Shown here in pieces: positions 19,793 through 44,122 of a DNA stretch of 64,000 nt; the first letter of the stretch is position 1; each line of letters opens with the position of its first letter. The translations under genes and the position numbers were made by a program. The notes under the pieces are model-generated. The model made no database searches, had not been told where the DNA came from, and was given only the letters and a program-made list of their open reading frames with translations. The stretch comes from an uncultured Clostridia bacterium (GTDB lineage: Bacteria; Bacillota; Clostridia; Oscillospirales; Oscillospiraceae), in the NCBI GenBank assembly GCA_945915065.1, contig CAMEER010000001.1, positions 62,001 to 126,000 of the forward strand. Reading direction: 5' to 3'.

Positions 19793-21694
19793 TTGAAAGA
19801 TTGGGATCGTTTAATCACGGTGGAACAGATGGAAGCCGCCACGGCCGCTCTGCTGGAAAACGGCATCAAGGTCGGCGCGGATTCGTGGCAGCAGCGCGCA
19901 AAGAATCAGACCCCACACTGCGGTTTCGGTGAAGCCGGAACCTGCTGCCGTATTTGCTCCATGGGTCCGTGCCGCATCACCCCCAAAGCGCCCCGGGGCA
20001 TCTGCGGCTGCGACGTCCACGGCATTGTGGGCAGAAACTATCTGCGTTTCACCGCCGGCGGCTCCGCCACGCACTCCGACCACGGCCGTGAGATCATGCA
20101 TACCCTGTACCAGACCCGCGAGGGAGGCAACTATCAGGTCAAGGACCCCGAGAAGCTCAAGCGCATTGCCAGAGAGTGGGGCGTGGAGACCGAGGGCAAG
20201 GACATCTATGATCTGGCCCACGAAATCGCCGAGATCGGCCTGCTGGAATACGGCAAGCCCTTCGGCACCCAGCGCTTCCTCAAGCGCGCGCCCGAGCATA
20301 CCCAGAAGCTGTGGAGTGAGGCCGGCATTGAGCCCCGGGCCATTGACCGCGAGGTCTCCCAGTCTCTGCATATGACCCATATGGGCTGCTCTTCCAAGCC
20401 TGAGGCCCTGATCCGCCAGTCCCTGCGGGCCGGCCTGTCCGACGGCTGGGGCGGCTCCATGATGGGCACTGAGTTCTCCGACGTCATGTTCGGCACTCCC
20501 AAGCCCATTGATACCACCGCCAACATCGGCGTGATGGAAAAGGATAACGTCAATATTATCGTCCACGGCCACGATCCCTCCCTGTCCGAGATGATCGTGT
20601 TCTATGCCAACGACCCGGAGATGATCGCCTACGCCAAGGAAAACGGCGCCAAGGGCATCACCGTGGCCGGCGTCTGCTGCACCAGCAACGAGGTGACCAT
20701 GCGTCACGGCATCCCCATGGCCGGCAACTTCCTGAGTCAGGAGAACGTGGTGCTGACCGGCGCCTGCGAGGCCATCGTGGTGGACGTACAGTGCATTTTC
20801 CCGGCACTGGGCCCTCTGTCCAAGTGCTTCCATACCAAGTTCATCACCACCTCTCCCATTGCCCAGATCCCGGACTCTGATTTCATCGAGTTCCATGCCG
20901 AGAGCGCCGGTGAGAACGCCAAGGCCATCGTCAGAACGGCCATCGAGAACTTCAAGAACCGCCGCCCCGAGCTGGTGAACATTCCCGACCTGAAGACCAA
21001 GGCCCGCGTGGGCTACTCTGTGGAGGCCATCAAGAAGGAGCTGGACGGCGTGTGCAACTCCCATGTGGATACATACGGCACCACCAAGCCGCTCATTGAC
21101 TGCGTCAAGGCCGGCGTGCTGCGGGGCGCGGTGGCCATGGTGGGCTGCAACAACCCCAAGGTCCGTCCCGACACCGCCCATATCGAGCTGATGAAGAAGC
21201 TGCTGAAGAACGACATCATCGTCATTCTCTCCGGCTGCTCCGCCCAGGCTGCCGCCAAGGCCGGCCTGATGGATCCCGACGCCAAGGAGTACTGCGGCGA
21301 GGGTCTCAAGCGTGTGTGCGAGCTGGTGGGCATTCCCCCTGTGCTGCACATGGGCTCCTGCGTGGATATCTCCCGCATGATGATCCTGGCCTCTGATATC
21401 GCCAAGGATTGGGGCATCAACATCTCCCAGATCCCCCTGTGCGGCTGCGCCCCCGAGTGGATGAGCGAGAAGGCCGTGTCCATCGGCAACTACGTTGTCG
21501 CCACCGGTATCGACACCTATCTGGGCGTGGATCCCTACACCAAGGGCTCCAGCGAGGTGGTGGAGCTGCTGCAGGGCGAGCACGGCGTCAAGGATTGGGT
21601 GGAAGCCCACTTCATCGTGGATACCGATATCGAGAGTCTGGGCGACAAGATGATCGCCGGCATCGAGGCCAAGCGCGCGGCGCTGGGCATCTGA
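19793..21694 (+). CDS. cooS: Ni-dependent carbon monoxide dehydrogenase, catalytic subunit
   Basis: TTG start with AGGAGG RBS; CGFGEAGTCCRICSMGPCRI Cys cluster; GVCCTSNEVTMRHG; VGCNNPKVRPD; GSCVDISR. Confidence 0.95.
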   Translation: MKDWDRLITVEQMEAATAALLENGIKVGADSWQQRAKNQTPHCGFGEAGTCCRICSMGPCRITPKAPRGICGCDVHGIVGRNYLRFTAGGSATHSDHGREIMHTLYQTREGGNYQVKDPEKLKRIAREWGVETEGKDIYDLAHEIAEIGLLEYGKPFGTQRFLKRAPEHTQKLWSEAGIEPRAIDREVSQSLHMTHMGCSSKPEALIRQSLRAGLSDGWGGSMMGTEFSDVMFGTPKPIDTTANIGVMEKDNVNIIVHGHDPSLSEMIVFYANDPEMIAYAKENGAKGITVAGVCCTSNEVTMRHGIPMAGNFLSQENVVLTGACEAIVVDVQCIFPALGPLSKCFHTKFITTSPIAQIPDSDFIEFHAESAGENAKAIVRTAIENFKNRRPELVNIPDLKTKARVGYSVEAIKKELDGVCNSHVDTYGTTKPLIDCVKAGVLRGAVAMVGCNNPKVRPDTAHIELMKKLLKNDIIVILSGCSAQAAAKAGLMDPDAKEYCGEGLKRVCELVGIPPVLHMGSCVDISRMMILASDIAKDWGINISQIPLCGCAPEWMSEKAVSIGNYVVATGIDTYLGVDPYTKGSSEVVELLQGEHGVKDWVEAHFIVDTDIESLGDKMIAGIEAKRAALGI

Positions 21695-22516: not shown

Positions 22517-24646
22517 ATGGGATTATTTGATAGAGTATTCAGAGGCTCCGACGAGATGTTTGCCAAAGCGGAGGCAGAGATCAACGCCGTCGTCGCCGAA
22601 CTGGGCGAGTCCGCTCCCATGAAGATGCCGGACACGGCCTACTACCTGTCCTGCATTTACGCCTATCTGGGCAAGAAGGTCACCACGCTGGGCGAGCTGC
22701 GGGACGCGCTCTGCGACGTGAAGGCCATGATGACCCGCGAGCATAAGACCAAGGACATCTTCACCTCCGGCGTAGGCACCGCCATCGCCGCCGAGATGAT
22801 CGAAGCCTGCAAGTATGCCCGCAACCCCGCCCCCTACGAGGGCACCAACTATCACGGCCACTTTACCGACGCCGAAGTGCGTACCCTGGGCGTGCCGCTG
22901 GTCACCCGGGATATCCCCGGCTTCGTGGTCATGATCGGCCCGGCCCCCACCAAGGAAGAAGCGCTGGAGACCGTCAAGGGCTATCAGTCCCGCGGTATCT
23001 TCGTGTTCCTCATCGGCGGCATCATCGAGCAGCTGCTGGAGTGCGGCATGACCATGAACTTTGACGTCCGTGTGGTCCCCGTGGGCGCGGATATCTGGTC
23101 CGTTGGCCATATCATCTCCCTGGTGGTCCGCGCCGCCTTCATCTTCGGCGCGGTGCAGCCCGGTGACTATGACGGCCACATCGACTACTCCTTCCACCGC
23201 ATCTTCGCGTTCGTCAACGCCTACAAGCCCGTCAACGATATCACCGTGGCCTGCGGCGCCGGCGCCATTCAGATGGGCTTCCCCGTCATCACCAACGATA
23301 CCGACGATATGTGGGCCGTGCCCAAGTCCCTGATTATCAACGAGAATACTCAGGACTGGATCGAGACCTCTCTGGAGGCCCGGGACATCAAGATCAAGGT
23401 CACCAACATCGATATCCCCGTGGCCTTCTCCAACGCCTTTGAGGGTGAGATCATCCGCAAGAGCGATACCCAGATCGAGATCGACGGCTCCCGGGTGGAC
23501 TGCTGCGAATTCTGCCGCACCGAGGAAGCTCAGAAAATCGAGGATCACGCCATTATTCTGGACGGCCCCGATTTCGATGAGTTTGAACCCGGCGCCAAAA
23601 TCTGCCTGACCATCACGCTGGAGGTGGCCGGCAAGTCCTGGCAGACCGACTTTGAGCCTGTTGTCGAGCGCAAGTTCCACAACTTCCTCAACTGCATCGA
23701 GGGCGTCATGCACACCGGCCAGCGCGATATGATCCGCATCCGTGTGTCCAAGGCGGCTTTCGACGCCGGTTTCCGCGCCCGTCATCTGGGCGAGGTGCTG
23801 TACGCCAAGGTCAAGGGCGAGTATGAGACCGTGGTGGACAAGTGCCAGGTCCGCATCTGCACCCGTCCCGAGGGCTGCAAGGAGATCCGTGCCAAGGCCA
23901 ACGAGGCCTTCATCGCCCGTGATGCCCGCCTGAAGTCCATGACGGACGAGTCCGTGGACCAGTTCTATACCTGCATTCTGTGCCAGGCCTTCTCCCCCAG
24001 CCACGTCTGCATCGTCACTCCCGAGCGTCTGGGACTGTGCGGCGCCGTGTCCTGGCTGGATGCCAAGGCCACCAATGAGCTGGATCCCAACGGCCCCTGC
24101 CAGATCGTTCCCAAGACCCGCTGCACCGACGAGCGCCTGGGCGCCTATGAGGATGTCAACGAGGCGGTGTGCAAGTACTCCCACGGCGCGCTGGAGCGCG
24201 TGACGCTGTACTCTATCCTGGAGGACCCCATGACCTCCTGCGGCTGCTTCGAGTGCATCTGCGGCATCGAGCCCATGTCCAACGGCGTGGTCATCACCAA
24301 CCGCGAGCATGTGGGCATGACGCCTCTGGGCATGACCTTCTCCGAGATGGCCTCCATGACCGGCGGCGGCGTGCAGACCCCCGGCTTCATGGGCCACGGC
24401 AAGCAGTTCATCGCCTCTAAGAAGTTCCTGGCCGCCGAGGGCGGCATGGGCCGCATCGTGTGGCTGCCCAAGGAGCTGAAGGATCAGATGGCCGACCGCA
24501 TCAACGCCACGGCCAAGGAGCTGTACGGCATCGATAACTTCACCGCCATGATCGCGGATGAGACCGTCACCACCGATATGGAGGAGCTGTACACCTTCCT
24601 GACCGAGGTGGGCCATCCCGTTCTGGAGATGGAGCCCCTCATGTAA
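22517..24646 (+). CDS. acsB: Acetyl-CoA synthase (CODH/ACS beta), copy 1
   Basis: FYTCILCQAFSPSHVCIVTPERLGLCGAVSW and SCGCFECICGIEPMSNG A-cluster motifs. Confidence 0.95.
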   Translation: MGLFDRVFRGSDEMFAKAEAEINAVVAELGESAPMKMPDTAYYLSCIYAYLGKKVTTLGELRDALCDVKAMMTREHKTKDIFTSGVGTAIAAEMIEACKYARNPAPYEGTNYHGHFTDAEVRTLGVPLVTRDIPGFVVMIGPAPTKEEALETVKGYQSRGIFVFLIGGIIEQLLECGMTMNFDVRVVPVGADIWSVGHIISLVVRAAFIFGAVQPGDYDGHIDYSFHRIFAFVNAYKPVNDITVACGAGAIQMGFPVITNDTDDMWAVPKSLIINENTQDWIETSLEARDIKIKVTNIDIPVAFSNAFEGEIIRKSDTQIEIDGSRVDCCEFCRTEEAQKIEDHAIILDGPDFDEFEPGAKICLTITLEVAGKSWQTDFEPVVERKFHNFLNCIEGVMHTGQRDMIRIRVSKAAFDAGFRARHLGEVLYAKVKGEYETVVDKCQVRICTRPEGCKEIRAKANEAFIARDARLKSMTDESVDQFYTCILCQAFSPSHVCIVTPERLGLCGAVSWLDAKATNELDPNGPCQIVPKTRCTDERLGAYEDVNEAVCKYSHGALERVTLYSILEDPMTSCGCFECICGIEPMSNGVVITNREHVGMTPLGMTFSEMASMTGGGVQTPGFMGHGKQFIASKKFLAAEGGMGRIVWLPKELKDQMADRINATAKELYGIDNFTAMIADETVTTDMEELYTFLTEVGHPVLEMEPLM

Positions 24647-28508: not shown

Positions 28509-29438
28509 ATGAGCGTGAAGGACATTTTCAGCAAGAGAGCTGCATTTTCCTTTGAGGTCTTCCCGCCCAAGACGGATGTGGGCATGGAGAAGCTGTGCGG
28601 GGAAAACGGTGTTCTGGAGAAGCTGTACACCATGAACCCGGATTACATCTCCTGCACCTACGGCGCAGGCGGCTCCAACGTGGGCAAGAACCTGGAGGTG
28701 CTGGACAAGATCGTGGCCGACGGCAAGACCACGCCCGTCACCCACTTTACCTGCATCGGCAACACCAAGGATGATATCCGCCAGAAGCTGCAGACCTATC
28801 TGGATCACGGCATCAACCATGTTCTGGCCCTGCGGGGCGACCTGCCCTTCGGCTGGGAAGGCACCAACGGCGACCTGCATTACGCCACTGAACTGGTGAA
28901 GTTTATCCGTCAGGAGTTCGGCGACAAGTTCACCATCGCCGTGGCCGGTTCTCCCGAGGGCCATATCCAGTGCCGCTCTCTGGAGGCGGATATCTCCTTC
29001 CTGAAGCAGAAGCAGGACAACGGCGCCGATTACGTGATCTCTCAGCTTTGCTGGGACATGGACCAGTTCCGCTATTGGCTGGACGCCATCCGCGCGGCCG
29101 GCGTTACCATGCCCATCGATGTGGGTATCATGCCCATCACCACTATCTCCGGCACCATCACCAACGCCCTGAGCCGCAACGCCTGCGTGATGGACCGCAA
29201 GCTGTGCGAGATCATCTCCAAGTACTGGATCTTCCCCAACCCCTATGATCCCGCCCCCTTTGACGCGGATGCCGAGCAGAAGAAGGCCGACTTCCGCAAG
29301 GCCGGTCTGGACTACACCATCGAGCTGATCGACCAGTATCGCGCCTGCGGTGTGGACGGCATCCACCTGTACGCGCTGAACAAGTACGACGACGTGGCCT
29401 ACATCGCCAAGAACGCCGGCCTTATTGACCTGATTTGA
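28509..29438 (+). CDS. metF: 5,10-methylenetetrahydrofolate reductase
   Basis: FSFEVFPPKT, YISCTYGAGGSN, LALRGDLP, QLCWDMDQF. Confidence 0.93.
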   Translation: MSVKDIFSKRAAFSFEVFPPKTDVGMEKLCGENGVLEKLYTMNPDYISCTYGAGGSNVGKNLEVLDKIVADGKTTPVTHFTCIGNTKDDIRQKLQTYLDHGINHVLALRGDLPFGWEGTNGDLHYATELVKFIRQEFGDKFTIAVAGSPEGHIQCRSLEADISFLKQKQDNGADYVISQLCWDMDQFRYWLDAIRAAGVTMPIDVGIMPITTISGTITNALSRNACVMDRKLCEIISKYWIFPNPYDPAPFDADAEQKKADFRKAGLDYTIELIDQYRACGVDGIHLYALNKYDDVAYIAKNAGLIDLI

Positions 29439-29501: not shown

Positions 29502-30272
29502 ATGGGAAAGACACATATTATTGCAGTGGCAGGCAAGGGTGGCGTCGGCAAAACGACCACCTGCGGCATGCTGATCGACTATCTGTGCAAGGCGGGCAAG
29601 GGCCCGCTGCTGGTAGTGGATGCCGACGCCAATTCCAACCTGAACGAGGTGCTGGGCGTGGAAGTGGAGACCACGCTGGGCGACATCCGTGAGGAGATGG
29701 CACAGGCGGAGAAAAACGGCACTGTGCCGCCCAGCATGACCAAGGCGGATTACGCTGAGATGAAGTTCAGCTCCGCCCTGGTGGAGGAGGACGACTATGA
29801 CATGCTGGTCATGGGCCGGACCCAGGGCAAGGGCTGCTACTGCTTTGTCAACGGCGTGCTGAAAACGCAGATCGACAAGTACGTCGGCAACTACAAATAT
29901 ATGATCATCGACAACGAGGCCGGGCTGGAGCATATCAGCCGCGGCACCCTGCCCCATGTGGACACCATGCTGCTGATCTCGGATTGCTCGCGGCGGGGTA
30001 TCCAGGCGGCCGGCAGGATCGCCGAGATGATCCGGGAGCTGGAGCTGAAGCCCGGCACCATGAAGCTGATCGTCAACCGTGCGCCGGGCGGAGAGCTGAA
30101 TCCCGGCGTGGCGGAGGAGATCGAAAAATACCACCTGGAGCTGGCAGGCGTACTGCCCCAGGACGATACGGTTTACGCCTATGACTGCGAAGGAAAGCCC
30201 AGTTCGCAGGTCCCCGACAGCGCGCCGGTGAAGAAGGCCCTGGCCGGGATCATCAAGGAACTGAATCTCTAA
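29502..30272 (+). CDS. CooC/AcsF-type P-loop maturation ATPase
   Basis: AGKGGVGKTTTCGMLIDYL; GRTQGKGCYCFVN (CxC); IDNEAGLEHISRGT. Confidence 0.92.
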   Translation: MGKTHIIAVAGKGGVGKTTTCGMLIDYLCKAGKGPLLVVDADANSNLNEVLGVEVETTLGDIREEMAQAEKNGTVPPSMTKADYAEMKFSSALVEEDDYDMLVMGRTQGKGCYCFVNGVLKTQIDKYVGNYKYMIIDNEAGLEHISRGTLPHVDTMLLISDCSRRGIQAAGRIAEMIRELELKPGTMKLIVNRAPGGELNPGVAEEIEKYHLELAGVLPQDDTVYAYDCEGKPSSQVPDSAPVKKALAGIIKELNL

Positions 30273-30303: not shown

Positions 30304-31248
30304 ATGTCTTTCGTTCCCAAGAAACAGACGTACAATGCCCGCATCAATGAGGTGGTTCTGGGCGTTGGTGAAAAAGCGGTGACCATCGGCGGCCAGAATG
30401 TGCTGGCGTTCCACACCTTCGACGCGGAGATCGCCAACGCGCCCAAGATCGGCGTGGAGCTGACCGACGCCGGTATGGCTATGTGCACCATGCCCGGCGA
30501 GCAGAAGTTCTATGAGGGCTGCGCCACGGTGGCCGATATGGCGAAGCGCGCGGAGACCATGGAGGGCGCGTCCTTTATCTGCCTGCATCTGGAGGGCGCC
30601 GATCCCAACGGTGAGAACAAGTCCGTGGACGAGTGTGTGGCGCTGGCCAAGTCCGTGGCCGACGCCACCGACATGCCGCTGGTGATCATGGGCTGCAAGA
30701 ATATCGAGAAGGACACCGAGCTGTTCAACAAGATCGCCGAGGCGCTGTCCGGCAAGAACATTCTGGTGCTGTCCGCCCGTGACGAGAATTACAAGGCCAT
30801 CGGCGCCGGCGCCGGCCTGGCCTACGGCCAGAAGGTGGGCGCGGAGTCCGCCGTGGATATCAACCTGGCCAAGCAGTTGAACACCGTTATGACCCAGCTG
30901 GGCGTCAACGCCCAGTCCATCGTGATGAACATCGGCTCCGCCGCCGCCGGTTACGGCTTTGAGTATGTGGCCTCCACGCTGGATCGCGTGAAGGACGCCG
31001 CTCTGAGCCAGTCCGACGCCATGCTGCAGATGCCCATTATCACCCCCGTGTCCGCCGATACCTGGGGCGTGAAGGAGTCCATCATGCCTGAGGCCGACAT
31101 GCCCGAGTGGGGCTCCCAGGAAGAACGCGGCATCGAGATGGAGATCGTTACCGCCGCCGCCGTGCTGGCCAGCGGCAGCGACGCCGTCATCATGCGCCAC
31201 CCCGAAGCCATCCGCACCATCGCCGCCATGATCGGCGAGTTGGTCTGA
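30304..31248 (+). CDS. acsD: Corrinoid iron-sulfur protein small subunit (CODH/ACS delta)
   Basis: TIGGQNVLAFHTFDAEIANAPKIGVELTDAG; KNIEKDTELFNKIAEALSGKNILVLSARDENYKAIGAGA; AcsD/CdhD family and gene order. Confidence 0.92.
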   Translation: MSFVPKKQTYNARINEVVLGVGEKAVTIGGQNVLAFHTFDAEIANAPKIGVELTDAGMAMCTMPGEQKFYEGCATVADMAKRAETMEGASFICLHLEGADPNGENKSVDECVALAKSVADATDMPLVIMGCKNIEKDTELFNKIAEALSGKNILVLSARDENYKAIGAGAGLAYGQKVGAESAVDINLAKQLNTVMTQLGVNAQSIVMNIGSAAAGYGFEYVASTLDRVKDAALSQSDAMLQMPIITPVSADTWGVKESIMPEADMPEWGSQEERGIEMEIVTAAAVLASGSDAVIMRHPEAIRTIAAMIGELV

Positions 31249-31270: not shown

Positions 31271-33547
31271 ATGGCTGTAAAAGGTTTAGATATTTTCAAG
31301 CTGTCCCCGAAGAAGAACTGCAAGGAGTGCGGCGTGCCCACCTGTATGGCATTCTGCATGAAGGTGGCCCAGGGCGCGCTGCCCATCGAGAAGTGCCCCT
31401 ATATGTCCGACGAGGCCATCGCCCTGCTGAGCGAGGCGACCGCGCCTCCCATGAAGGCCATCGAAGTCGGCGGCATGAAGCTGGGCGGCGAGACCGTGAT
31501 GATGCGTCATGAAAAGACCTTCGTCAACCGCAACCGCTTTGCCGTGTCCCTGTGCACCTGCATGGACGACGCCGCTGTGGACGCCAAGATCGCCGAGATG
31601 AAGGCCGTGGATTACGAGCGTATCGGCGAGCGTGAGTATGTGGAGTTCCTGCTGATCCATGACGCCGGCGACGGCGCACGGCTGGCGGAGCTGTGCAAGA
31701 AGGCTGCCGCAACTGAGCGTGCCGTCATTATCGACACCGAGAGCGTGGACAACGCCAAGCTGGCGCTGGCCGCCATCGGCGACACCAAGCCCCTGCTGAA
31801 CGGCGCCAACAAGGACAACTACGAGGCCATGAACGCGCTGGCCGTGGAAGCCGGCGTGGTGCTGGGCGTCAAGGGTGCTGATCTGGCGGAGCTCCACGAC
31901 ACCGTGGCCGCGCTGGAGAAGCTGGACAACAAGAACCTGGTCATCGACGTGACCGGCGCCACCGTGAAGGAGACCTTCGCCAATGCCGTGCTGGTGCGCC
32001 GCACCGCCCTGAAGGACGGCGACCGCACCTTTGGCTATCCCTCTATCGTGAATCTGGCCAAGCTGTGCCGCGGCGATGTACATATGGAGGCCGCTCTGGC
32101 GGCTGTGTTCACCATGAAGTACGGCTCCATCGTGGCCATGGAGACCATGCGCTATGCCGAGGCGCTGCCGCTGTACGGTCTGCGCCAGAACGTGTTCACC
32201 GATCCTCAGAAGCCCATGAAGGTGGAACCGGGCATCTATCCCATCAACGGCGCGACCCCCGATGATCCCTGCGCCCTGACCGTGGACTTCGCTCTGACCT
32301 ACTTCCTGGTCTCCGGTGAGCTGGAGCGCTCCAAGGTGCCGGTGAACCTGCTGATCACCGATGCGTCCGGTATGTCCGTGCTGACCGCATGGGCCGCCGG
32401 TAAGTTCTCCTCCGGCTCCATCAAGAAGTTCTTTGATGAGTACGATATCGCCGGCAAGATCAACAACCGCACCCTGATCATCCCCGGCAAGGCCGCTGTG
32501 ATGAAGGGCGACATTCAGGATAAGCTGCCCGACTGGAACGTGGTGGTGGGCACCCGCGAGGCCGTGGAGCTGGTGAAGTACCTGCGCGACGGCGAACACG
32601 TCAAGGCCGCCGAGGCCGTGGCCGCCTCCAAGAAGCCGGCCGACGAGAAAAAGGCCGTTGTGGACGCCGACGCTCCGCTGGACTTCGAGAAGATCGCCAT
32701 GTCTATCCCCGAGATCAAGGTGGTGGATATGGGCGTCAGCTACAAGCAGCGCGATCCCAACTCCCCCAAGTTCGTCACCATCGGCGAGCGCATCCACTGC
32801 ATCAGCCCCGTGATCCGCGAGGCCATGAACAACATGGATCCCGAGCCGATCCTGAAGCGTGCCGCCGAGCAGATCAAGGCCGGCGCCACCTATCTGGACG
32901 TGAACATCGGCCCCGCCGAGTCCAACGGCCCCGAGCTGATGACCTGGGCGGTGAAGCTGCTGCAGGAGAACTTCAACAACGTGCCTCTGGCACTGGATAC
33001 CGCCAACAAGAAGGCCATCGAGGCCGGCATCCGGGTGTACAACCGCACCAACGGCAAGCCCATCGTCAACTCCGCCGACGCCGGTTCCCGTATTTCCAAC
33101 ATCGATCTGGCGGCCGCCAACGACGCCATCGTTATCGCCCTGTGCTCCGCCGACGGTATCGCCAAGGACAACGAGGAGCGCATGATGCACTGCCACCACA
33201 TGCTGGAGCGCGGCCTGAGTCTGGGCATGGACGCTTCCGACCTGTGGTTCGACCCCCTGTTCCTGGTGGTCAAGGGTATGCAGGATAAGCAGATGGACGT
33301 GCTGAACGCCATCAAGATGTTCGCCGACGAGGGCCTGAAGTCCACCGGCGGCCTCAGCAACAACTCCAACGGCGCTCCCAAGGCCGTCCGTCCCATTCTG
33401 GACTCCACGCTGGTGGCCATGGCTATGATGCAGGGTCTGACCTCCGCCATCGTCAACCCCAACGACCTGCGCCTGATGGAGACCATCAAGTCCTGCGACA
33501 TCTTCAAGAACCACGTTCTGTACTCCGACTCCTATCTGGACGAGTAA
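31271..33547 (+). CDS. acsC-acsE: Fusion: corrinoid iron-sulfur protein large subunit (AcsC/gamma) + methyl-THF:corrinoid methyltransferase (AcsE)
   Basis: 758 aa single frame. N-part: LSPKKNCKECGVPTCMAFCMKVAQGALPIEKCPYMS (AcsC 4Fe-4S motif). C-part: KFVTIGERIHCISPVIREAM...YLDVNIGPAESNG...LGLSN-like TGGLSNNSNGAPKAVRPILDSTLVAMAM (AcsE/pterin-binding). Linker rich in Ala/Lys (VKAAEAVAASKKPADEKKAVVDADAPLDFEKI). Confidence 0.93.
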   Translation: MAVKGLDIFKLSPKKNCKECGVPTCMAFCMKVAQGALPIEKCPYMSDEAIALLSEATAPPMKAIEVGGMKLGGETVMMRHEKTFVNRNRFAVSLCTCMDDAAVDAKIAEMKAVDYERIGEREYVEFLLIHDAGDGARLAELCKKAAATERAVIIDTESVDNAKLALAAIGDTKPLLNGANKDNYEAMNALAVEAGVVLGVKGADLAELHDTVAALEKLDNKNLVIDVTGATVKETFANAVLVRRTALKDGDRTFGYPSIVNLAKLCRGDVHMEAALAAVFTMKYGSIVAMETMRYAEALPLYGLRQNVFTDPQKPMKVEPGIYPINGATPDDPCALTVDFALTYFLVSGELERSKVPVNLLITDASGMSVLTAWAAGKFSSGSIKKFFDEYDIAGKINNRTLIIPGKAAVMKGDIQDKLPDWNVVVGTREAVELVKYLRDGEHVKAAEAVAASKKPADEKKAVVDADAPLDFEKIAMSIPEIKVVDMGVSYKQRDPNSPKFVTIGERIHCISPVIREAMNNMDPEPILKRAAEQIKAGATYLDVNIGPAESNGPELMTWAVKLLQENFNNVPLALDTANKKAIEAGIRVYNRTNGKPIVNSADAGSRISNIDLAAANDAIVIALCSADGIAKDNEERMMHCHHMLERGLSLGMDASDLWFDPLFLVVKGMQDKQMDVLNAIKMFADEGLKSTGGLSNNSNGAPKAVRPILDSTLVAMAMMQGLTSAIVNPNDLRLMETIKSCDIFKNHVLYSDSYLDE

Positions 33548-33762: not shown

Positions 33763-35898
33763 ATGAGCGTATTAACCGACCTGATCTATGGCGGTTCCAA
33801 CGCCGTGGCCGGCCTGACGGAAGGCGCAGTCAACGACGCGATCGCCAAATACGGCGCAGACAAAGAAATCGCATTTCCCGATACCGCGTACTTTTTCCCG
33901 ACGATCTATGCCGCCACCGGCGTGAAAGTCAAAACATTGGGTGATCTGCCTGCCTGCGTGGGCGTGCTGAAAAGCCTGATCACCAATCAGGAGGATCTGG
34001 GCCAGGCGCTGAACGCCGGTCTTGCCACCGCCGTGGGCGCTGAGATCCTGGAGGGCCTGAAGTTTGTGGAGCCCAAGGACGCCTATGAGCAGGCCGCCGT
34101 GCCCGGTATCGGCTTCGTACCCGACCCCATCATCCGTTCTCTGGGCGTGCCGCTGGTCACCGGCGACATCCCCGGCGTGGCGGTGGTGCTGGGCAAGGCG
34201 GAAAACCCGGAGGATGCCGTGAAGGTGGTCAAGGACTATCAGTCCAAGGGCATTATGACCTTCATGGTGGGCGACGTCATTGAGCAGTGCGCCGAGGGCG
34301 GCGTGAAAATGGGCCTTGAGTTCCGTGTGATCCCGCTGGGTCACGACGTGACCTCCGTTATCCATGTGGTGACCGTGGCCATCCGCGCCGCGCTGATCTT
34401 CGGCAACGTGCAGCCCGGCGATCTGGCCGGCCTGCTGGCCTACACCAAGGAGCGCGTACCCGCCTTCGTCAACACCTTCGGCGCTATCGACAGCGTGGTG
34501 GTCTCTGCCGGCGCCGGCGCCATCGCGCTGGGCTTCCCCGTTGTGGTGGACATTGATCTGGGCGAGAATCAGGTGCCCGGCGCGCTGGAGTCCGTGCTGG
34601 ATCACAGCGAGACCGTGAAGCGCTCTCTGGAGCTGCGAAACATCAAGATCAAGTCCAAGGATCTGCCTATCCCTGTGGCCTTCTCCGCCGCCTTTGAGGG
34701 CGAGATCATCCGTAAGGCTGACGTGAAGGCGGAGTTCTGGTCCTCCAAGAATCCCACCTGCGAGCTGGTGCTGATGAAGGACGCCGACCAGGTGGAGGAT
34801 CATAAGATCACGCTGATCGGCCCGGACATCGACTCCGGCGATCTGGAATACGCCATGGGCACCTTTATCGAGGTCTATGGCAAGAAGATGCAGGCCGACT
34901 TTGAGTCTGTCATCGAGCGCAAGATCCATGCATGGTTCAACTACATGGAGGGCGTGATGCACACCGGCCAGCGGAACCTGCTGCGTGTCCGCGTGTCCAA
35001 CGACGCCTTTGAAAAGGGCCTGCGCATGAAGGACTTCGGCGAAGTGCTGTACCATATGATCATGGATGAGTTCGACGCCGTTGTGGATAAGTGCCAGATC
35101 ACCCTGATCACCGATCCCGCTGAAACCAAGAAGCTGCTGGAGGAGCAGGCGATGCCCCGCTACAATATGCGTGACGACCGGCTGGCCTCCATGTCCGATG
35201 AGTCTGTGGATCAGTTCTATACCTGCATCCTGTGCCAGTCCTTCGCCCCCGCCCACTGCTGTGTGGTAACGCCGGAGCGTCTGGGCCTGTGCGGCGCTGT
35301 GTCCTGGCTGGACGCCAAGGCCACCTATGAGCTGAACCCCAACGGCCCGTCTCAGCCTATCCCCAAGGAGGGCTGTCTTGACGAGCGCACCGGCAGCTAT
35401 GAGACCGTCAACGAGACGGTAAAGAACGCCACCCACGGCGCCGTGGAGTCTGTGACGCTGTACTCCATTCTGGAGGATCCCATGACCTCCTGCGGCTGCT
35501 TCGAGTGCATCTGCGGCATTGAGCCCATGTCCAACGGCTTTATCGTGGTCAACCGCGAGTACAGCGGCACCACTCCCGTGGGTATGACCTTCGGCGAGCT
35601 GGCCTCCTGCACCGGCGGCGGCGTTCAGACCCCCGGCTATATGGGCCATGGCCGTCACTTCATCTCCTCCAAGAAGTTCATCCACGCCGAGGGCGGCATC
35701 GAGCGTATCGTGTGGATGCCCAAGGAGCTGAAGGACGATGTGGCCGCCCGCCTCAACAAGACCGCCATGGAGCTGTACGGCATCGAGAACTTCAGCGATA
35801 TGATCGCCGACGAGACCATCTGCACCGACTGCGACGCGCTGATGGAGTTCCTGACGGAGAAGAACCATCCCGTGCTGGGCATGGATCCCCTGATGTAA
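33763..35898 (+). CDS. acsB: Acetyl-CoA synthase (CODH/ACS beta), copy 2
   Basis: FYTCILCQSFAPAHCCVVTPERLGLCGAVSW and SCGCFECICGIEPMSNG A-cluster motifs. Confidence 0.95.
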   Translation: MSVLTDLIYGGSNAVAGLTEGAVNDAIAKYGADKEIAFPDTAYFFPTIYAATGVKVKTLGDLPACVGVLKSLITNQEDLGQALNAGLATAVGAEILEGLKFVEPKDAYEQAAVPGIGFVPDPIIRSLGVPLVTGDIPGVAVVLGKAENPEDAVKVVKDYQSKGIMTFMVGDVIEQCAEGGVKMGLEFRVIPLGHDVTSVIHVVTVAIRAALIFGNVQPGDLAGLLAYTKERVPAFVNTFGAIDSVVVSAGAGAIALGFPVVVDIDLGENQVPGALESVLDHSETVKRSLELRNIKIKSKDLPIPVAFSAAFEGEIIRKADVKAEFWSSKNPTCELVLMKDADQVEDHKITLIGPDIDSGDLEYAMGTFIEVYGKKMQADFESVIERKIHAWFNYMEGVMHTGQRNLLRVRVSNDAFEKGLRMKDFGEVLYHMIMDEFDAVVDKCQITLITDPAETKKLLEEQAMPRYNMRDDRLASMSDESVDQFYTCILCQSFAPAHCCVVTPERLGLCGAVSWLDAKATYELNPNGPSQPIPKEGCLDERTGSYETVNETVKNATHGAVESVTLYSILEDPMTSCGCFECICGIEPMSNGFIVVNREYSGTTPVGMTFGELASCTGGGVQTPGYMGHGRHFISSKKFIHAEGGIERIVWMPKELKDDVAARLNKTAMELYGIENFSDMIADETICTDCDALMEFLTEKNHPVLGMDPLM

Positions 35899-35961: not shown

Positions 35962-37893
35962 ATGTATCAGGTCATCTTTACCTTTGAAAACGGCGCCGCG
36001 CCAGTGACGGCTACCGCCGCGCCCGGCGAGACTTTGCTGGAGACTGCCCGTGCCGCCAACGTGGCCATCGACGCCCCCTGCTCCGGCAACGGCTCCTGCG
36101 GCAAGTGCCGCGTGAAGCTGCTGGAGGGGGCGGTGGAGGGCTTGCAGACCGGCCACATCACCGACGAGGACTATGCCGCCGGCTGGCGTTTGAGCTGCGC
36201 CAGCAAGGTGACGTCCGATGTGACGGTGCTGGTGCCGGACATTGCTTCCGCCTACCAGAGCCGCATGAAAACCGCCGATCTGTCCACCGGAGAGGAGATC
36301 GCCATCTTTACCCGGCTGGAGGAGGATCTAAAAGCGGCGGGTGTGGCGTTCAGCAACGACTTCGTGGAGGCGGAGGTCGCCATGGAGGCGCCGACGCTGG
36401 AGGATACCATGCCCGACACGGAGCGGCTGACGCTGGCGCTGCAGGACGCTCTCGGCTGCGAGGAGGTGCGCCTGGGGTATCCTGTGGTACATAAACTGGC
36501 GGCGGTGCTGCGGCACAGCGGCTTTCATGTGACGGCGGCCGGTACGCTGCGCAGCGGCGTTATGCAGGTGATGGATTTGCGGCCTTTTGACGCGCCGCAG
36601 CCCATGTGCGGCCTTGCCATTGATATCGGCACCACCACGGTGTCGGCGGTGCTGATGGACCTGAAAACCGGTAAGCTGCTGGCCAAGGGATCCGGCGGCA
36701 ACGGCCAGATCCGGTACGGCGCGGACGTGATCAACCGCATTGTGGAGCAGGGACGGCCCGGCGGCGTGGAGCGCCTGCAGAAGGCTATCGTGGAGGAAAC
36801 TTTGCAGCCGCTGACCAGGGCGCTGTGCCGCAGCGCCGGCGTGGAGGCGGAGCGTATCCTGCGCTGCTGCGTGGCCTCCAACACCACCATGAACCATCTG
36901 CTGCTGGGCGTGGACGCCGATCCCGTGCGGATGGAGCCGTATATCCCCACCTTTTTCCGCTGGGATGGCCTGAAGGCCGGTGACATCCGCCTGATCGCCA
37001 ATCCCGACGCCAGGGTAGTGCTGGCCCCCAACATCGGCTCCTATGTGGGCGGCGATATCACCGCCGGTACGCTGACCAGCCGGATCTGGGATAAGGACGA
37101 ATTTTCCCTGTTCATCGATCTGGGCACCAACGGCGAAATTGTGTTCGGCAACCGGGACTTTATGATGTCCTGCGCCTGCTCCGCAGGTCCCGCCTTTGAG
37201 GGCGGCGACATCTCCTGCGGCATGCGGGCCACCGACGGCGCGGTGGAGGCCGTGACCATCGACCGGGAGACGCTGGAGCCGGTGCTGTCCATTGTGGGTA
37301 AGCCGGGCCAGAAACCGGTGGGCATCTGCGGCAGCGGTATCATCGACGTGATCGCCGAGCTGTACCGCACCTCCGCCATCTCCGCCAAGGGGCATTTTGT
37401 GCGGGAGAACCGCCGTATCCTCCGGGATGAGCACGGCATGGGCCGCTATGTGCTGGCCTTCGGCAGCGAGAGCGACACGGGCCGGGAGATCGCCATCACC
37501 GAGGTGGATATCGAGTGCTTCATCCGGGCCAAGGGCGCCATCTTCTCCGCCATCCACATCATGCTCTCCTCGCTGGATATGGACGTCAGCGTGCTGGAGC
37601 ATATCTATGTGGCGGGCGGCATCGGCAGCGGTATCAATATGGACAATGCCGTGCGCATCGGCATGTTCCCCGATGTGGACCGGGAGCTGTTCACCTATAT
37701 CGGCAATTCCTCACTGACGGGCGCTTACGCGCTGACGCTGTCCACAGCGGCGGAGGAGAAGGTCCACCAGCTGGCCAGCAACATGACCTATCTGGAGCTG
37801 TCCACCGAGCCGCGCTACATGGAGGAATTTGTGGCGGCCTGCTTCCTGCCCCATACCGACCGGGAGCTGTTCCCGTCCAGCGTACAGGAGTGA
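35962..37893 (+). CDS. Reductive activator of corrinoid protein (RACo-like; 2Fe-2S ferredoxin + ASKHA ATPase)
   Basis: CSGNGSCGKCRVKLLEG...LSCAS plant-type 2Fe-2S motif; GLAIDIGTTTVSAVL; FIDLGTNGEIVFGN; next to acsB. Confidence 0.92.
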   Translation: MYQVIFTFENGAAPVTATAAPGETLLETARAANVAIDAPCSGNGSCGKCRVKLLEGAVEGLQTGHITDEDYAAGWRLSCASKVTSDVTVLVPDIASAYQSRMKTADLSTGEEIAIFTRLEEDLKAAGVAFSNDFVEAEVAMEAPTLEDTMPDTERLTLALQDALGCEEVRLGYPVVHKLAAVLRHSGFHVTAAGTLRSGVMQVMDLRPFDAPQPMCGLAIDIGTTTVSAVLMDLKTGKLLAKGSGGNGQIRYGADVINRIVEQGRPGGVERLQKAIVEETLQPLTRALCRSAGVEAERILRCCVASNTTMNHLLLGVDADPVRMEPYIPTFFRWDGLKAGDIRLIANPDARVVLAPNIGSYVGGDITAGTLTSRIWDKDEFSLFIDLGTNGEIVFGNRDFMMSCACSAGPAFEGGDISCGMRATDGAVEAVTIDRETLEPVLSIVGKPGQKPVGICGSGIIDVIAELYRTSAISAKGHFVRENRRILRDEHGMGRYVLAFGSESDTGREIAITEVDIECFIRAKGAIFSAIHIMLSSLDMDVSVLEHIYVAGGIGSGINMDNAVRIGMFPDVDRELFTYIGNSSLTGAYALTLSTAAEEKVHQLASNMTYLELSTEPRYMEEFVAACFLPHTDRELFPSSVQE

Positions 37894-38525: not shown

Positions 38526-39467
38526 ATGAGTTTTACCTATCTGAACCTGCAGGGCACGCTGGAGCACATTACGGTGACGTCCGAGGAGATCGACCGTCAG
38601 CTGCAGCGGCTGCTGCAGGCCAACCCCCGTATCGTACCCGTCACAGACCGGGCTGCCGCGCTGGGCGATGAACTGGTGCTGGACTACGCCGGATTTTCCG
38701 AGGGTGTCCAGTTCCCCGGCGGCACCGCCGAAAAGCAGACGCTGACGCTGGGCAGCGGTATGTTCATCCCCGGCTTTGAGGAGCAGCTGGTGGGCGCCAA
38801 CATCGGCGACGACGTGACGGTGACCGTCACCTTCCCCACCGAGTACCATGCCCCGGAGCTGGCGGGCAAGGCGGCGGAGTTCCGCTGTCATGTCCATGAG
38901 ATCCGCAGCCACACTTCCTATGAACTGGACGATACCTTCGCCAGAGAGGTGGGGCAGTGCGACACCGTGGAGCAGATGCGTGTCATGGTGGGCAAGGCAC
39001 TACAGGAGTACTATGATGAGCGGGCCGAGCAGGAGCTGCGCTGGCAGCTGATGCATCAGGCGGCGGCCACCGTGGAGGAGCAGCCCTCGGAGGAGGAGCT
39101 GGACCGCATGGTGGAGGCCCAGATGGAGACGCTGACGGCACAATTGGCCCAGAAGGGCCTGACGCTGGAGGCCTACTGCCAGTTTACCGGCAGCGACGAG
39201 GCCCAACTGCGGCAGGATATGCGGCCCGACGCGCTGGAGGCGTTCCGCACCCAGAAGGCGGTGGAAAAGATCGCGGCGCTGGAGAATCTCTCCGTCAGCG
39301 ACGAGGAGATGAACGCCGCGTTTGAGAAGATCTGCGCCGACAACAACATGCGCGCCGAGGATCTCCAGCCCTATTTTGACAACGGCTTTATCACCGTGGT
39401 CCAACAGCAGCTGCTGCGGGAAAAGGCCACGGATCTGGTGCGCCGCGCGGCGCGCATCACACAGTGA
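38526..39467 (+). CDS. Trigger-factor-like FKBP peptidyl-prolyl isomerase lacking an obvious ribosome-binding domain
   Basis: GDELVLDYAGF...FIPGFEEQLVGANIGDDVTVTVTFPTEYHAPELAGKAAEFRCHVHEI (FKBP/TF core) plus TF-like C-terminal helices. Confidence 0.8.
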   Translation: MSFTYLNLQGTLEHITVTSEEIDRQLQRLLQANPRIVPVTDRAAALGDELVLDYAGFSEGVQFPGGTAEKQTLTLGSGMFIPGFEEQLVGANIGDDVTVTVTFPTEYHAPELAGKAAEFRCHVHEIRSHTSYELDDTFAREVGQCDTVEQMRVMVGKALQEYYDERAEQELRWQLMHQAAATVEEQPSEEELDRMVEAQMETLTAQLAQKGLTLEAYCQFTGSDEAQLRQDMRPDALEAFRTQKAVEKIAALENLSVSDEEMNAAFEKICADNNMRAEDLQPYFDNGFITVVQQQLLREKATDLVRRAARITQ

Positions 39468-39542: not shown

Positions 39543-41351
39543 ATGGCAATCGAATTCAAAGACGGCAAGTATGTAGACGAGACCGGTCACGTTACGCTGG
39601 ATCCCACCGTTTACAAAGACTGGCAGATCGCCGCGGAAGCCGAAAAGACCCTTCCGTCCGTGGAGTATTTCCGCGAGAAGCTGGGCCTGCTTCCCGATGA
39701 GATCATCCCCTATGGCAAGACCCCGAAGATGGACTTCATCAAGATCATGAACCGCCTGAAGGATAAGCCCGACGGCAAGTTTATCGAGGTTACCGCCATT
39801 ACCCCCACGCCCTTCGGCGAGGGTAAATCCACGGTTTCTCTGGGCTTGATCGAAGGTCTCGGCAAGCTGGGCCTCAACGTTGGCGGCGCGCTGCGTCAGC
39901 CCTCCGGCGGCCCCACCATGAACGTGAAGGGTACCGCTGCCGGCGGCGGCAACGCACTGCTCATGCCCATGACCGAGTTCTCCCTGGGTCTGACCGGCGA
40001 CATCAACGACATTATGAACGCCCACAACCTGGCCATGGTGGCCCTGAACGCCCGTATGCAGCACGAGCGCAATAACAGCGACGAATGGCTGGCCAAGAAG
40101 GGCCTGAAGCGTCTGGACATCGACCCCAAGCGCGTGGAGATGGGCTGGGTCATGGACTTCTGCGCACAGGGCCTGCGCAACATCATCATCGGCATCGGCG
40201 GCCGTCTGGACGGCTTCATGATGGAGTCCAAGTTCGGCATCGCTGTGGGCTCCGAGCTGATGGCGATTCTGGCGGTGGCCCGCGACCTGAAGGATCTGCG
40301 GGAGCGTATCGGCAAGATCGTGGTGGCCTATGACCGCAAGGGCAACCCCGTCACCACCGAGGATCTGGAAGTTGCCGGCGCCATGACCGCATGGATGCGC
40401 AACACCATCAACCCCACCATGTGCTACACCGTGGAGCATCAGCCTGTGCTGGTCCACGCCGGCCCCTTTGCCAACATCGCCATCGGCCAGTCCTCCGTCA
40501 TCGCCGACCGTCTGGCCCTGAAGCTGTTTGACTATCATGTGACCGAGTCCGGCTTCGCCGCCGACATCGGCTTTGAGAAGTTCTGGAACGTCAAGACCCG
40601 TCTGTCCGGCCTGACCCCGAACGTCTCCGTTCTGGTCGCGACCGTCCGCGCGCTCAAGATGCACGGCGGCGGCCCGAAGGTCACCCCGGGCGCTCCCCTG
40701 CCCAAGGAATACACCGAGGAGAACCTCGAGCTTCTGGAAAAGGGCACCTGCAACCTGTTCCACCATGTCAACACCATCAAGAAGTCCGGCATCAACCCGG
40801 TCGTCTGCATCAACCGCTTCTACACCGATACCGACGCGGAGATCGCCCTGCTCAAGAAGCTGTGCCAGGAGCGCGGCATCCGCTGCGCCGAGTCCAACCA
40901 CTGGCGGTTTGGCGGCGAAGGCGCCATCGAGTTGGCCAAGGCCGTTGTGGAAGCCTGCGAAGAGCCGGTCAAGGTCAAGTTCCTGTATGATCTCGACATG
41001 CCGCTGCGGCAGCGCGTTGAGCTGATCGCCAAGGAAGTCTACGGCGCCGACGGCGTGGATTGGGCGCCTCTGGCGGTGGAAAAGGCCCAGCGCTTCGAGA
41101 GCGATCCCAAGTACGCCGACTACTGCACCATGATGGTCAAGACCCATCTGTCCCTGTCTGACGATCCCACCAAGAAGGGCGTGCCCACCGGCTGGCGTCT
41201 TGCCATCCGTGATATCCTGGAGTACGGCGGCGCCAAGTTCCTGTGCCCCATGGCCGGCACCATCTCCATGATGCCCGGCACAGCCGCCGATCCGGCGTAT
41301 CGCCGTATCGACGTTGACACCGAGACCGGTGAGGTTTCCGGCCTGTTCTGA
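39543..41351 (+). CDS. fhs: Formate-tetrahydrofolate ligase
   Basis: [47 protein letters not shown]. Confidence 0.95.
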
Positions 41352-41777: not shown

Positions 41778-42398
41778 ATGGATTATACTACCAAGTCCTG
41801 CCGTGAATTTGTCACGGTGCTGGCTTCCAACGAGCCGGCTCCCGGCGGCGGCGGCGCGTCCGCGCTGGTGGCTGCCGTCGGTACGGCGCTGGGCAATATG
41901 GTCGGTTCCCTGACCGTGGGCAAGAAGAAGTACGCCGATGTGGAGGCGGAGATCGTCGCCCTGCAGAAGAAGTGCGACGCATTGCAGACGGAGCTGCTGG
42001 ATCAGGTGCCTGCTGATGCCGAGGGGTTTGTGCCGCTGGCCAGAGCCTACGGTATCCCCAAGGACGATCCCGACCGGCCCCGCATCATGGAGGAGGCCAC
42101 CATCACCGCATGTCAGGTGCCCATGCACATTATGGAGCTGTGCTGCGAGGCCATCGACGCCATCGCCGTGTTCGCGGAGAAGGGCTCCCGCCTGGCGGTG
42201 TCCGATGCCGGCTGCGGCGCGGTGATCGTGAAAGCGGCCCTGCAGGCGGCGTCTTTGAACGTGTTCATCAACACCAAGACGCTGCAGAACCGGGCGCTGG
42301 CCGAGGAGATGAACGCCAAGTGCCTGGCGATGCTGGACACCTACGGCAAGAAGGCCGACGGTATTTTTGAGACCGTCAAGGCCGGCTTCTTCAAATAA
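41778..42398 (+). CDS. fchA: Methenyltetrahydrofolate cyclohydrolase (FchA/FTCD family)
   Basis: SNEPAPGGGGASALVAAVGTALGNMVGSLTVGKKKY. Confidence 0.92.
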   Translation: MDYTTKSCREFVTVLASNEPAPGGGGASALVAAVGTALGNMVGSLTVGKKKYADVEAEIVALQKKCDALQTELLDQVPADAEGFVPLARAYGIPKDDPDRPRIMEEATITACQVPMHIMELCCEAIDAIAVFAEKGSRLAVSDAGCGAVIVKAALQAASLNVFINTKTLQNRALAEEMNAKCLAMLDTYGKKADGIFETVKAGFFK

Positions 42399-42412: not shown

Positions 42413-43291
42413 ATGGCAAAGCAATTACTGGGCAAAGAAGTGACCGCCGCCATGAACGAGAAGCTGCAGCAGCGTGTGGCGGCGCTGAAGGAAAAGGGCG
42501 TGACGCCGAAGCTGGCCATCGTCCGCTGCGGTGAGAATCCCTCCGATCTGTCCTATGAAAAGGGCGCCACCTCCCGTGCCGAGCTGATCGGCGTGGACGT
42601 GGTGAAGTTCGTGCTGCCGGAGGATGTGACCAAGGAGGCCCTCATCGACCAGATCGAAGCCATCAACGTCGACGATACCATCCACGGCTGCCTGCTGTTC
42701 CGTCCGCTGCCCAAGCATCTGAAGGCGGATCAGGACGAGATCTGCAACCATCTGGCCGCCTGCAAGGATGTGGATTCTATGACCGATCTGTCCAATGCCG
42801 GTGTGTTCATGGGCAAGAAGCTGGGCTTCGCCCCCTGCACGCCTCAGGCCTGCATGGAGATTCTGGATTACTACGGCATTGACTGCACCGGCAAGAAGGC
42901 CGTTGTCATCGGCCGCTCTCTGGTGGTGGGCAAGCCCGCCGCCATGATGCTGCTGGGCAAGAACGCCACCGTGACCGTATGCCACACCAAGACCCGTGAC
43001 GTGCAGGCTGTGGCCCGGGAGGCGGACATTCTGGTGTCTGCCGCCGGTGTGCTGAAGAGCCTGACCAAGGACTATGTGCGGCCCGGTCAGATCGTCATCG
43101 ACGTGTCCATGAACTGGGCTCCTGATAAGGTTACCTCCAAGGGCAAGGGCGGCATGGCGGGCGACGCCGTGTTCAGCGAAGTGGAGCCTGTCGTTGAGGC
43201 CATTACCCCGGTGCCCGGCGGCGTGGGCGCCGTCACCACCTCCGTGCTGATCGGTCATGTGGTGGAGGCCGCCGAGCGCACGCTGGCGTAA
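42413..43291 (+). CDS. folD: Bifunctional methylene-THF dehydrogenase/methenyl-THF cyclohydrolase
   Basis: YEKGATSRAELIGVDVV; VIGRSLVVGKPAAMMLLGKNATVTVCHTKT; TPVPGGVGAVT. Confidence 0.95.
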   Translation: MAKQLLGKEVTAAMNEKLQQRVAALKEKGVTPKLAIVRCGENPSDLSYEKGATSRAELIGVDVVKFVLPEDVTKEALIDQIEAINVDDTIHGCLLFRPLPKHLKADQDEICNHLAACKDVDSMTDLSNAGVFMGKKLGFAPCTPQACMEILDYYGIDCTGKKAVVIGRSLVVGKPAAMMLLGKNATVTVCHTKTRDVQAVAREADILVSAAGVLKSLTKDYVRPGQIVIDVSMNWAPDKVTSKGKGGMAGDAVFSEVEPVVEAITPVPGGVGAVTTSVLIGHVVEAAERTLA

Positions 43292-43303: not shown

Positions 43304-44122
43304 ATGAATCTGTTTGCACCTGCTGAGATCGCGGCCAACTACGCCGAAGCCGGCGTGAAAAAGAGCAGTATGCCGGTCAGCAAGATGCTGCTGTTGGGGA
43401 TTCTGGCCGGTATGCTGATCGCGTTTCCCTCCTGCGTGACCAATATGGCCAGCTATGGGCTGGACAACAACAGTGTGATCCGGGCTGTCTCCGGCCTGCT
43501 GTTTGCCTTCGGCCTGGGTATGGTGATCCTTATCGGCGCGGAGCTGTTCACCGGCAATACGCTGATCTTCATCAGCGTGCTGGAAAAGAAGGTCCAGGTG
43601 ACCGCCATGCTGAAGGACTGGCTGTTTGTGTACATCGGCAACTTCATCGGCTCTCTGCTGGTGGCGGTGCTGTGCGCCAAATTCGGCTGGCTGTCCGCCA
43701 GCGGTAATCTGCTGGCTACCTACGCTATGAAAGTGGCGCTGGGCAAGATGACCATGCCCTTCCAGAATGCGTTCTTCATGGGCTTCCTGTGCAACGTACT
43801 GGTGACCATCGGCGTGCTGCTGAGTCTGGGCGCCAAGGATACCATGGGCCGGTTTATCGGCGCGTGGGCGCCGGTGATGTTCTTCGTCACCTGCGGCTTC
43901 AACCACTCCATCGCCGACATGACCTACTGCACCATGGGTCTGTTTGCCAAGACGGTGCCTGCCTATGTGGAGACGGCACAGGCGCTGGGCGCGGATCTGA
44001 GCGCCCTGACCTGGGGCAACTACTTTGTGGGGAATATGCTGCCGGTAACGCTGGGCAACATATTGGGCGGCCTGTTTGTGGGCTTCACCATGTGGTTCGG
44101 CTTTTTGCGGAAAGCAAAGTAA
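43304..44122 (+). CDS. Formate/nitrite transporter family channel (FocA-like)
   Basis: FNT repeats; GAELFTGNTLIFI; GFNHSIADMTYC; multiple TM segments. Confidence 0.9.
   Translation: MNLFAPAEIAANYAEAGVKKSSMPVSKMLLLGILAGMLIAFPSCVTNMASYGLDNNSVIRAVSGLLFAFGLGMVILIGAELFTGNTLIFISVLEKKVQVTAMLKDWLFVYIGNFIGSLLVAVLCAKFGWLSASGNLLATYAMKVALGKMTMPFQNAFFMGFLCNVLVTIGVLLSLGAKDTMGRFIGAWAPVMFFVTCGFNHSIADMTYCTMGLFAKTVPAYVETAQALGADLSALTWGNYFVGNMLPVTLGNILGGLFVGFTMWFGFLRKAK

Follow-up and report, generated by a model that had tools for sequence, protein, structure and literature searches.

A single-chain AcsC-AcsE fusion of corrinoid protein and methyltransferase in a clade of gut Oscillospirales

In the Wood-Ljungdahl pathway the methyltransferase AcsE transfers the methyl group of CH3-tetrahydrofolate (CH3-THF) to the Co(I) of the corrinoid protein, from which it passes to AcsB. 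This carbon-fixing pathway is ancient, and two of its enzymes, AcsE and the corrinoid iron-sulfur protein (CFeSP) large subunit AcsC, are normally separate proteins; in the mostly uncultured gut bacteria described here a single polypeptide comprises both. The C-terminal corrinoid domain is regarded as mobile and as managing the contacts with acetyl-CoA synthase and methyltransferase (PMC12289521), and with the fusion nature provides a single chain in which the shuttling of this domain between methyl donor and acetyl-CoA synthase could be studied. A 2024 survey of human-gut genomes with CODH/ACS, in which gene functions were assigned with eggNOG-mapper and output as KEGG orthologs, did not detect acsE in 78% of those from Oscillospirales, in 7 of 9 genera, and called this interesting (PMC11338639). 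A survey of ruminants counts acsE among the criteria by which a genome is called an acetogen; of 449 acsB-bearing MAGs it retained 69 (PMC12449052).

The fusion was found in the window, i.e. the whole stretch of 64,000 nucleotides analysed here, taken from contig CAMEER010000001.1 of an uncultured Clostridia bacterium. The gene and its parts are as follows.

31271..33547, plus strand: acsCE fusion gene encoding 758 aa, free of internal stops; the AcsC model and the AcsE model each exceed the curated cut-off
31271..32590, plus strand: AcsC part, residues 1-440, with Fe-S domain, TIM barrel and C-terminal corrinoid domain (NF003195; Foldseek 9fzy_F, 4djd_C)
31307..31402, plus strand: N-terminal [4Fe-4S] domain, residues 13-44 (Pfam PF04060), with C17, C20, C25 and C42 invariant
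32591..32767, plus strand: linker, residues 441-499, absent from split AcsC and split AcsE
32678..32764, plus strand: conserved strap, residues 470-498, defined by conservation and by pLDDT without AcsC, and predicted to fold with the AcsE barrel
32768..33544, plus strand: AcsE methyltransferase part, residues 500-758, folate-site residues kept (NF040758; Foldseek 2yck, 2e7f)

The initial annotation had described an uninterrupted 758-aa AcsC-AcsE ORF with its junction at about 32580-32760, and both points hold, the linker lying close to that estimate and each half passing its curated profile: NF003195 (AcsC) matches residues 1-440 with 500 bits (cut-off 306), and NF040758 (CODH/ACS methyltransferase) matches residues 500-757 with 464 bits (cut-off 370). 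Pfam places the FeS domain at 13-44, CdhD at 70-437 and Pterin_bind at 518-729. The window's protein has the four cluster cysteines, as do all aligned relatives covering those sites; D576, N600, D661 and N697, invariant in 76 sequences, align with D75, N96, D160 and N199 of the Moorella methyltransferase MeTr, which we take to be its folate-site residues. Judged from sequence, both modules look intact. The MetH model TIGR02082, which spans homocysteine, folate, cobalamin and reactivation domains, reaches only 89 bits against a cut-off of 1011 and covers the folate domain alone, so the protein does not belong to MetH. It is not a separate AcsE protein either: the AcsE part shares one frame with AcsC and the genome shows no separate acsE, hence it is filed as an AcsC-AcsE fusion and not as plain AcsE.

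The fusion sits within a Wood-Ljungdahl cluster, directly downstream of acsD, and the set cooS, acsB, acsC, acsD, acsE, fhs, folD and metF is entirely present in the window. The other genes of the cluster are listed below.

19793..21694, plus strand: cooS/acsA, Ni-CO dehydrogenase (TIGR01702, 615 bits)
22517..24646, plus strand: acsB copy 1, 52% identical to copy 2 (NF040764, 981 bits)
28509..29438, plus strand: metF, methylenetetrahydrofolate reductase (PF02219)
29502..30272, plus strand: cooC-like P-loop ATPase (Pfam AAA_31/CbiA), found between metF and acsD in relatives
30304..31248, plus strand: acsD, corrinoid iron-sulfur protein small subunit (NF040759, 485 bits)
33763..35898, plus strand: acsB copy 2, acetyl-CoA synthase (NF040764, 1010 bits)
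35962..37893, plus strand: AcsV/RACo corrinoid reactivation protein (NF040756, 915 bits)
39543..41351, plus strand: fhs, formate-tetrahydrofolate ligase (NF010032, 1060 bits)
41778..42398, plus strand: fchA-like methenyl-THF cyclohydrolase (NF045657, 169 bits, below its cut-off)
42413..43291, plus strand: folD (best FolD model 254 bits; each model stays under its own cut-off)
43304..44122, plus strand: FocA-like formate/nitrite-family transporter, closing the cluster (TIGR00790, 180 bits, below its cut-off)

Gut CODH/ACS genomes are often without formate dehydrogenase (PMC11338639); no TIGR01591 match for this enzyme was obtained in the window's genome (81% complete), which, together with the FocA-like transporter, is in line with the pathways of that survey. 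Two further features of the cluster should be noted, namely that acsB occurs twice within it (22517-24646 and 33763-35898), and that it includes a trigger-factor-like chaperone gene (38526-39467) whose family model is matched only from position 112 onward, its N-terminal part seeming to be missing. The cluster (19793-44122) is patchily distributed, since about 30 genomes of the same genus, one of them 100% complete, show no AcsC match, and their AcsE-type matches are located in MetH-sized frames. The genes from 44186 on are common to the window and its nearest relative. Gain of the cluster, e.g. as an insertion, or its loss may underlie this pattern; the G021 contig ends about 400 bases past the boundary gene. 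A contaminating contig was considered and rejected, because the contig's gene for release factor 2 shares 84-100% identity with full-length copies in genomes of the same genus and because synteny with G021, at 89-99.6%, holds for the genes from 44186 onward.

One genome per species was scanned, which gave 176 relatives. In all of the best 80 of these, at 66-87% identity, AcsC and AcsE are joined in one frame. They derive mostly from gut Oscillospirales MAGs, by record titles Faecousia, Avoscillospira, Limimonas and other Oscillospiraceae, and include one named strain, Pseudoflavonifractor sp. MSJ-30, which is likewise fused. At 76 of these same 80 loci acsD is next upstream (the remaining four gave no upstream match), at 56 acsB is next downstream, and at none was an extra AcsE ORF seen near the fusion. 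Genomes were also sampled at wider ranks: in the window's order 16 of 396 genomes carry AcsC above cut-off, six of them fused; in the phylum AcsC occurs in 118 of 398 genomes, where the window's alone is fused and the 117 others are unfused, as judged by open-frame length; and in the class sample the 18 other genomes with AcsE above cut-off all have it in frames of 262-295 residues. The fusion is hence no peculiarity of this genome, being a trait of single origin with at least 80 other loci. The initial annotation had also considered that such fusions might be widespread and already characterised; they are widespread, within one clade, and neither a characterisation nor any description of an AcsC-AcsE fusion, with its structured linker, was found in the searched literature, most subscription papers lying outside that search.

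Trees were built from the AcsC part, the AcsE part and their concatenation with 74 fused sequences, and rooted on a distant split sequence rather than an independent outgroup. In each of them all 74 fused sequences form one clade without split members (support 0.94 for AcsC, 0.91 for AcsE and 0.99 concatenated), which is consistent with a single fusion event. The AcsC-AcsE fusion is real, of single origin and restricted to a clade. Split acsD-acsC-acsE-acsB operons (e.g. G033, G493) share the gene order and close sequences of the fused loci, but encode separate AcsC and AcsE, neither of which carries linker sequence.

The boundaries of the linker can be read from the split relatives, whose AcsC ends at about residue 440 and whose AcsE starts, near residue 499 in fusion numbering, with M(A/S)KF. 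The linker thus spans about 58 residues, with a range of 45-64 and mostly 57-60 in the best 80 of the 176 relatives. It had been described as Ala/Lys/Asp-rich, but is more than such a spacer or plain tether: its first half is variable and rich in Ala, Lys and Glu, and its second half is a conserved strap for which folding together with AcsE is predicted. Across 81 aligned fusions the strap positions P480, I482, D486, G488, V489 and Y491 are conserved at 91-100%, and the strap is kept even in the shortest, divergent fusion (G660). In the AlphaFold model of the full chain, residues 442-453 form a helix, confidence is low in the hinge at 457-463, and 470-500 are for the most part confidently modelled; when residues 441-758 are modelled alone, with AcsC removed, the strap has a pLDDT of 86-94 and the hinge one below 50. 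In the predicted anatomy AcsC is prolonged by an Ala-rich helix, after which come a short disordered hinge (about 454-464) and the conserved strap (470-498), which the models would place against the AcsE barrel, and on this basis only about 10-18 residues look flexible. With a full-chain pTM of only 0.53, the model leaves undefined how the AcsC and AcsE halves are placed relative to each other. Among solved structures no relative of the linker was found at E up to 10. An origin of the linker by plain read-through of the acsC-acsE gap is unsupported, the gap being too short in split relatives.

Several other explanations of the ORF have to be weighed. One might suspect, from the fragmented, incomplete state of the window's genome, that assembly or annotation overlooked a frameshift or a stop codon within the linker, but the same open join at the 80 loci from other genomes, that of the Pseudoflavonifractor strain among them, excludes such an error, and its probability is negligible. 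A different proposal is that the gene is fused and yet free AcsE is also made, either because translation starts a second time within the linker, e.g. at M487, or because proteases cut the chain at the disordered hinge. No second gene that would supply it was found, a check that the initial annotation had proposed: the assembled part of the window's genome contains no separate acsE, its only other Pterin_bind gene encoding a MetH-type protein, and five other fused genomes (97-99% complete) have one AcsE above cut-off each, inside the fused frame. Proteolysis could find its site in the hinge of low AlphaFold confidence, and internal initiation draws on the ATG at residue 487, which in the window and in L025 has a Shine-Dalgarno-like match of about -10.9 kcal/mol, comparable to the mean of -10.6 at split acsE starts. 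However, this start falls inside the conserved strap, the same ATG is weaker in L054, L078 and L164 (-5.0 to -8.0 kcal/mol), and the best start within the linker reaches only -6.8 kcal/mol as the median over 47 fusions, compared with a mean of -14.4 for the true start; production of free AcsE is hence quite improbable.

The fusion could also be neutral, a chance event that became fixed a single time and was then inherited; it would give the two operon partners equal expression without catalytic benefit, the halves acting as if separate. In split relatives acsC adjoins acsE with a short gap or none, making the fusion an easy step, and a single origin implies one event instead of repeated selection. 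Against this, about 58 residues were gained and their length held nearly constant, which a read-through of a short intergenic gap does not give, the strap is more conserved than the remaining linker, and no break-up of the fusion was seen among the sampled fused lineages. We therefore regard neutrality as unlikely, albeit a good deal less so than the production of free AcsE.

The ORF is, in our view, probably a functional single-chain AcsCE, that is, CFeSP large subunit plus methyltransferase, which together with AcsD would methylate its own corrinoid, or that of a dimer partner, and then serve AcsB. Under this scheme CH3-THF would bind at the AcsE site of AcsCE with AcsD as partner, the methyl group would move to the cobalt of the C-terminal corrinoid domain of the same chain or of its dimer partner, and the methylated domain would then deliver it to AcsB. 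The linker joins AcsC precisely at this corrinoid domain, and the fusion may keep the mobile domain beside the methyl donor site. The one-chain architecture fixes the AcsC:AcsE stoichiometry at 1:1, as had been proposed from the start, and a raised local concentration with faster methyl transfer through the fusion is plausible; methyl transfer may also take place within the molecule. A more elaborate version, in which AcsCE is a channelled, MetH-like unit whose strap anchors the linker on the AcsE barrel, leaving a hinge of only about 10-18 residues that holds the corrinoid domain near its own methyl donor site for intramolecular methylation, and in which the whole unit instead of AcsC alone docks on CODH/ACS, is tentative and rather doubtful.

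The fusion also bears on the genomes in which acsE was not detected. The AcsC half outscores the AcsE half, so an annotation that gives one label per gene could name the fusion acsC only, and this probably explains the missing acsE of PMC11338639 in Faecousia-type genomes, i.e. for part of the cases. If acsE is hidden in acsC, annotation by one function per gene yields too low a count of complete Wood-Ljungdahl pathways for an order that is common in the gut. A second lineage of the same order displays a different join, an AcsB-AcsD fusion in open frames of 1161-1197 aa (L167:3249-6743, L168:1727-5320, L172:7889-11374, L173:8296-11856) that adjoins a divergent AcsC, 37-38% identical. Genomes with this fusion (G464, G448, G467, G041 and G588) contain no AcsE above cut-off anywhere and the lineage seems truly to be without acsE; the AcsC-AcsE fusion is hence not the whole story.

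Compared with known systems, the AcsC half corresponds to AcsC of PDB 9fzy_F, 2ycl and 4djd, sharing over residues 1-440 the domains and cluster cysteines (9fzy_F is 53% identical in the fold alignment), but known AcsC ends at about residue 440-446 whereas that of the fusion continues into linker and AcsE. The AcsE half has the TIM-barrel fold and folate-site residues of AcsE/MeTr (PDB 2yck, 2e7f, 1f6y), and differs in lacking a free N-terminus, its barrel being preceded by the conserved strap. Cobalamin-dependent methionine synthase (MetH) resembles AcsCE in principle, since both carry methyl-THF and corrinoid domains on one chain; in AcsCE, however, the corrinoid domain comes first and the folate domain second, and a homocysteine domain is lacking.
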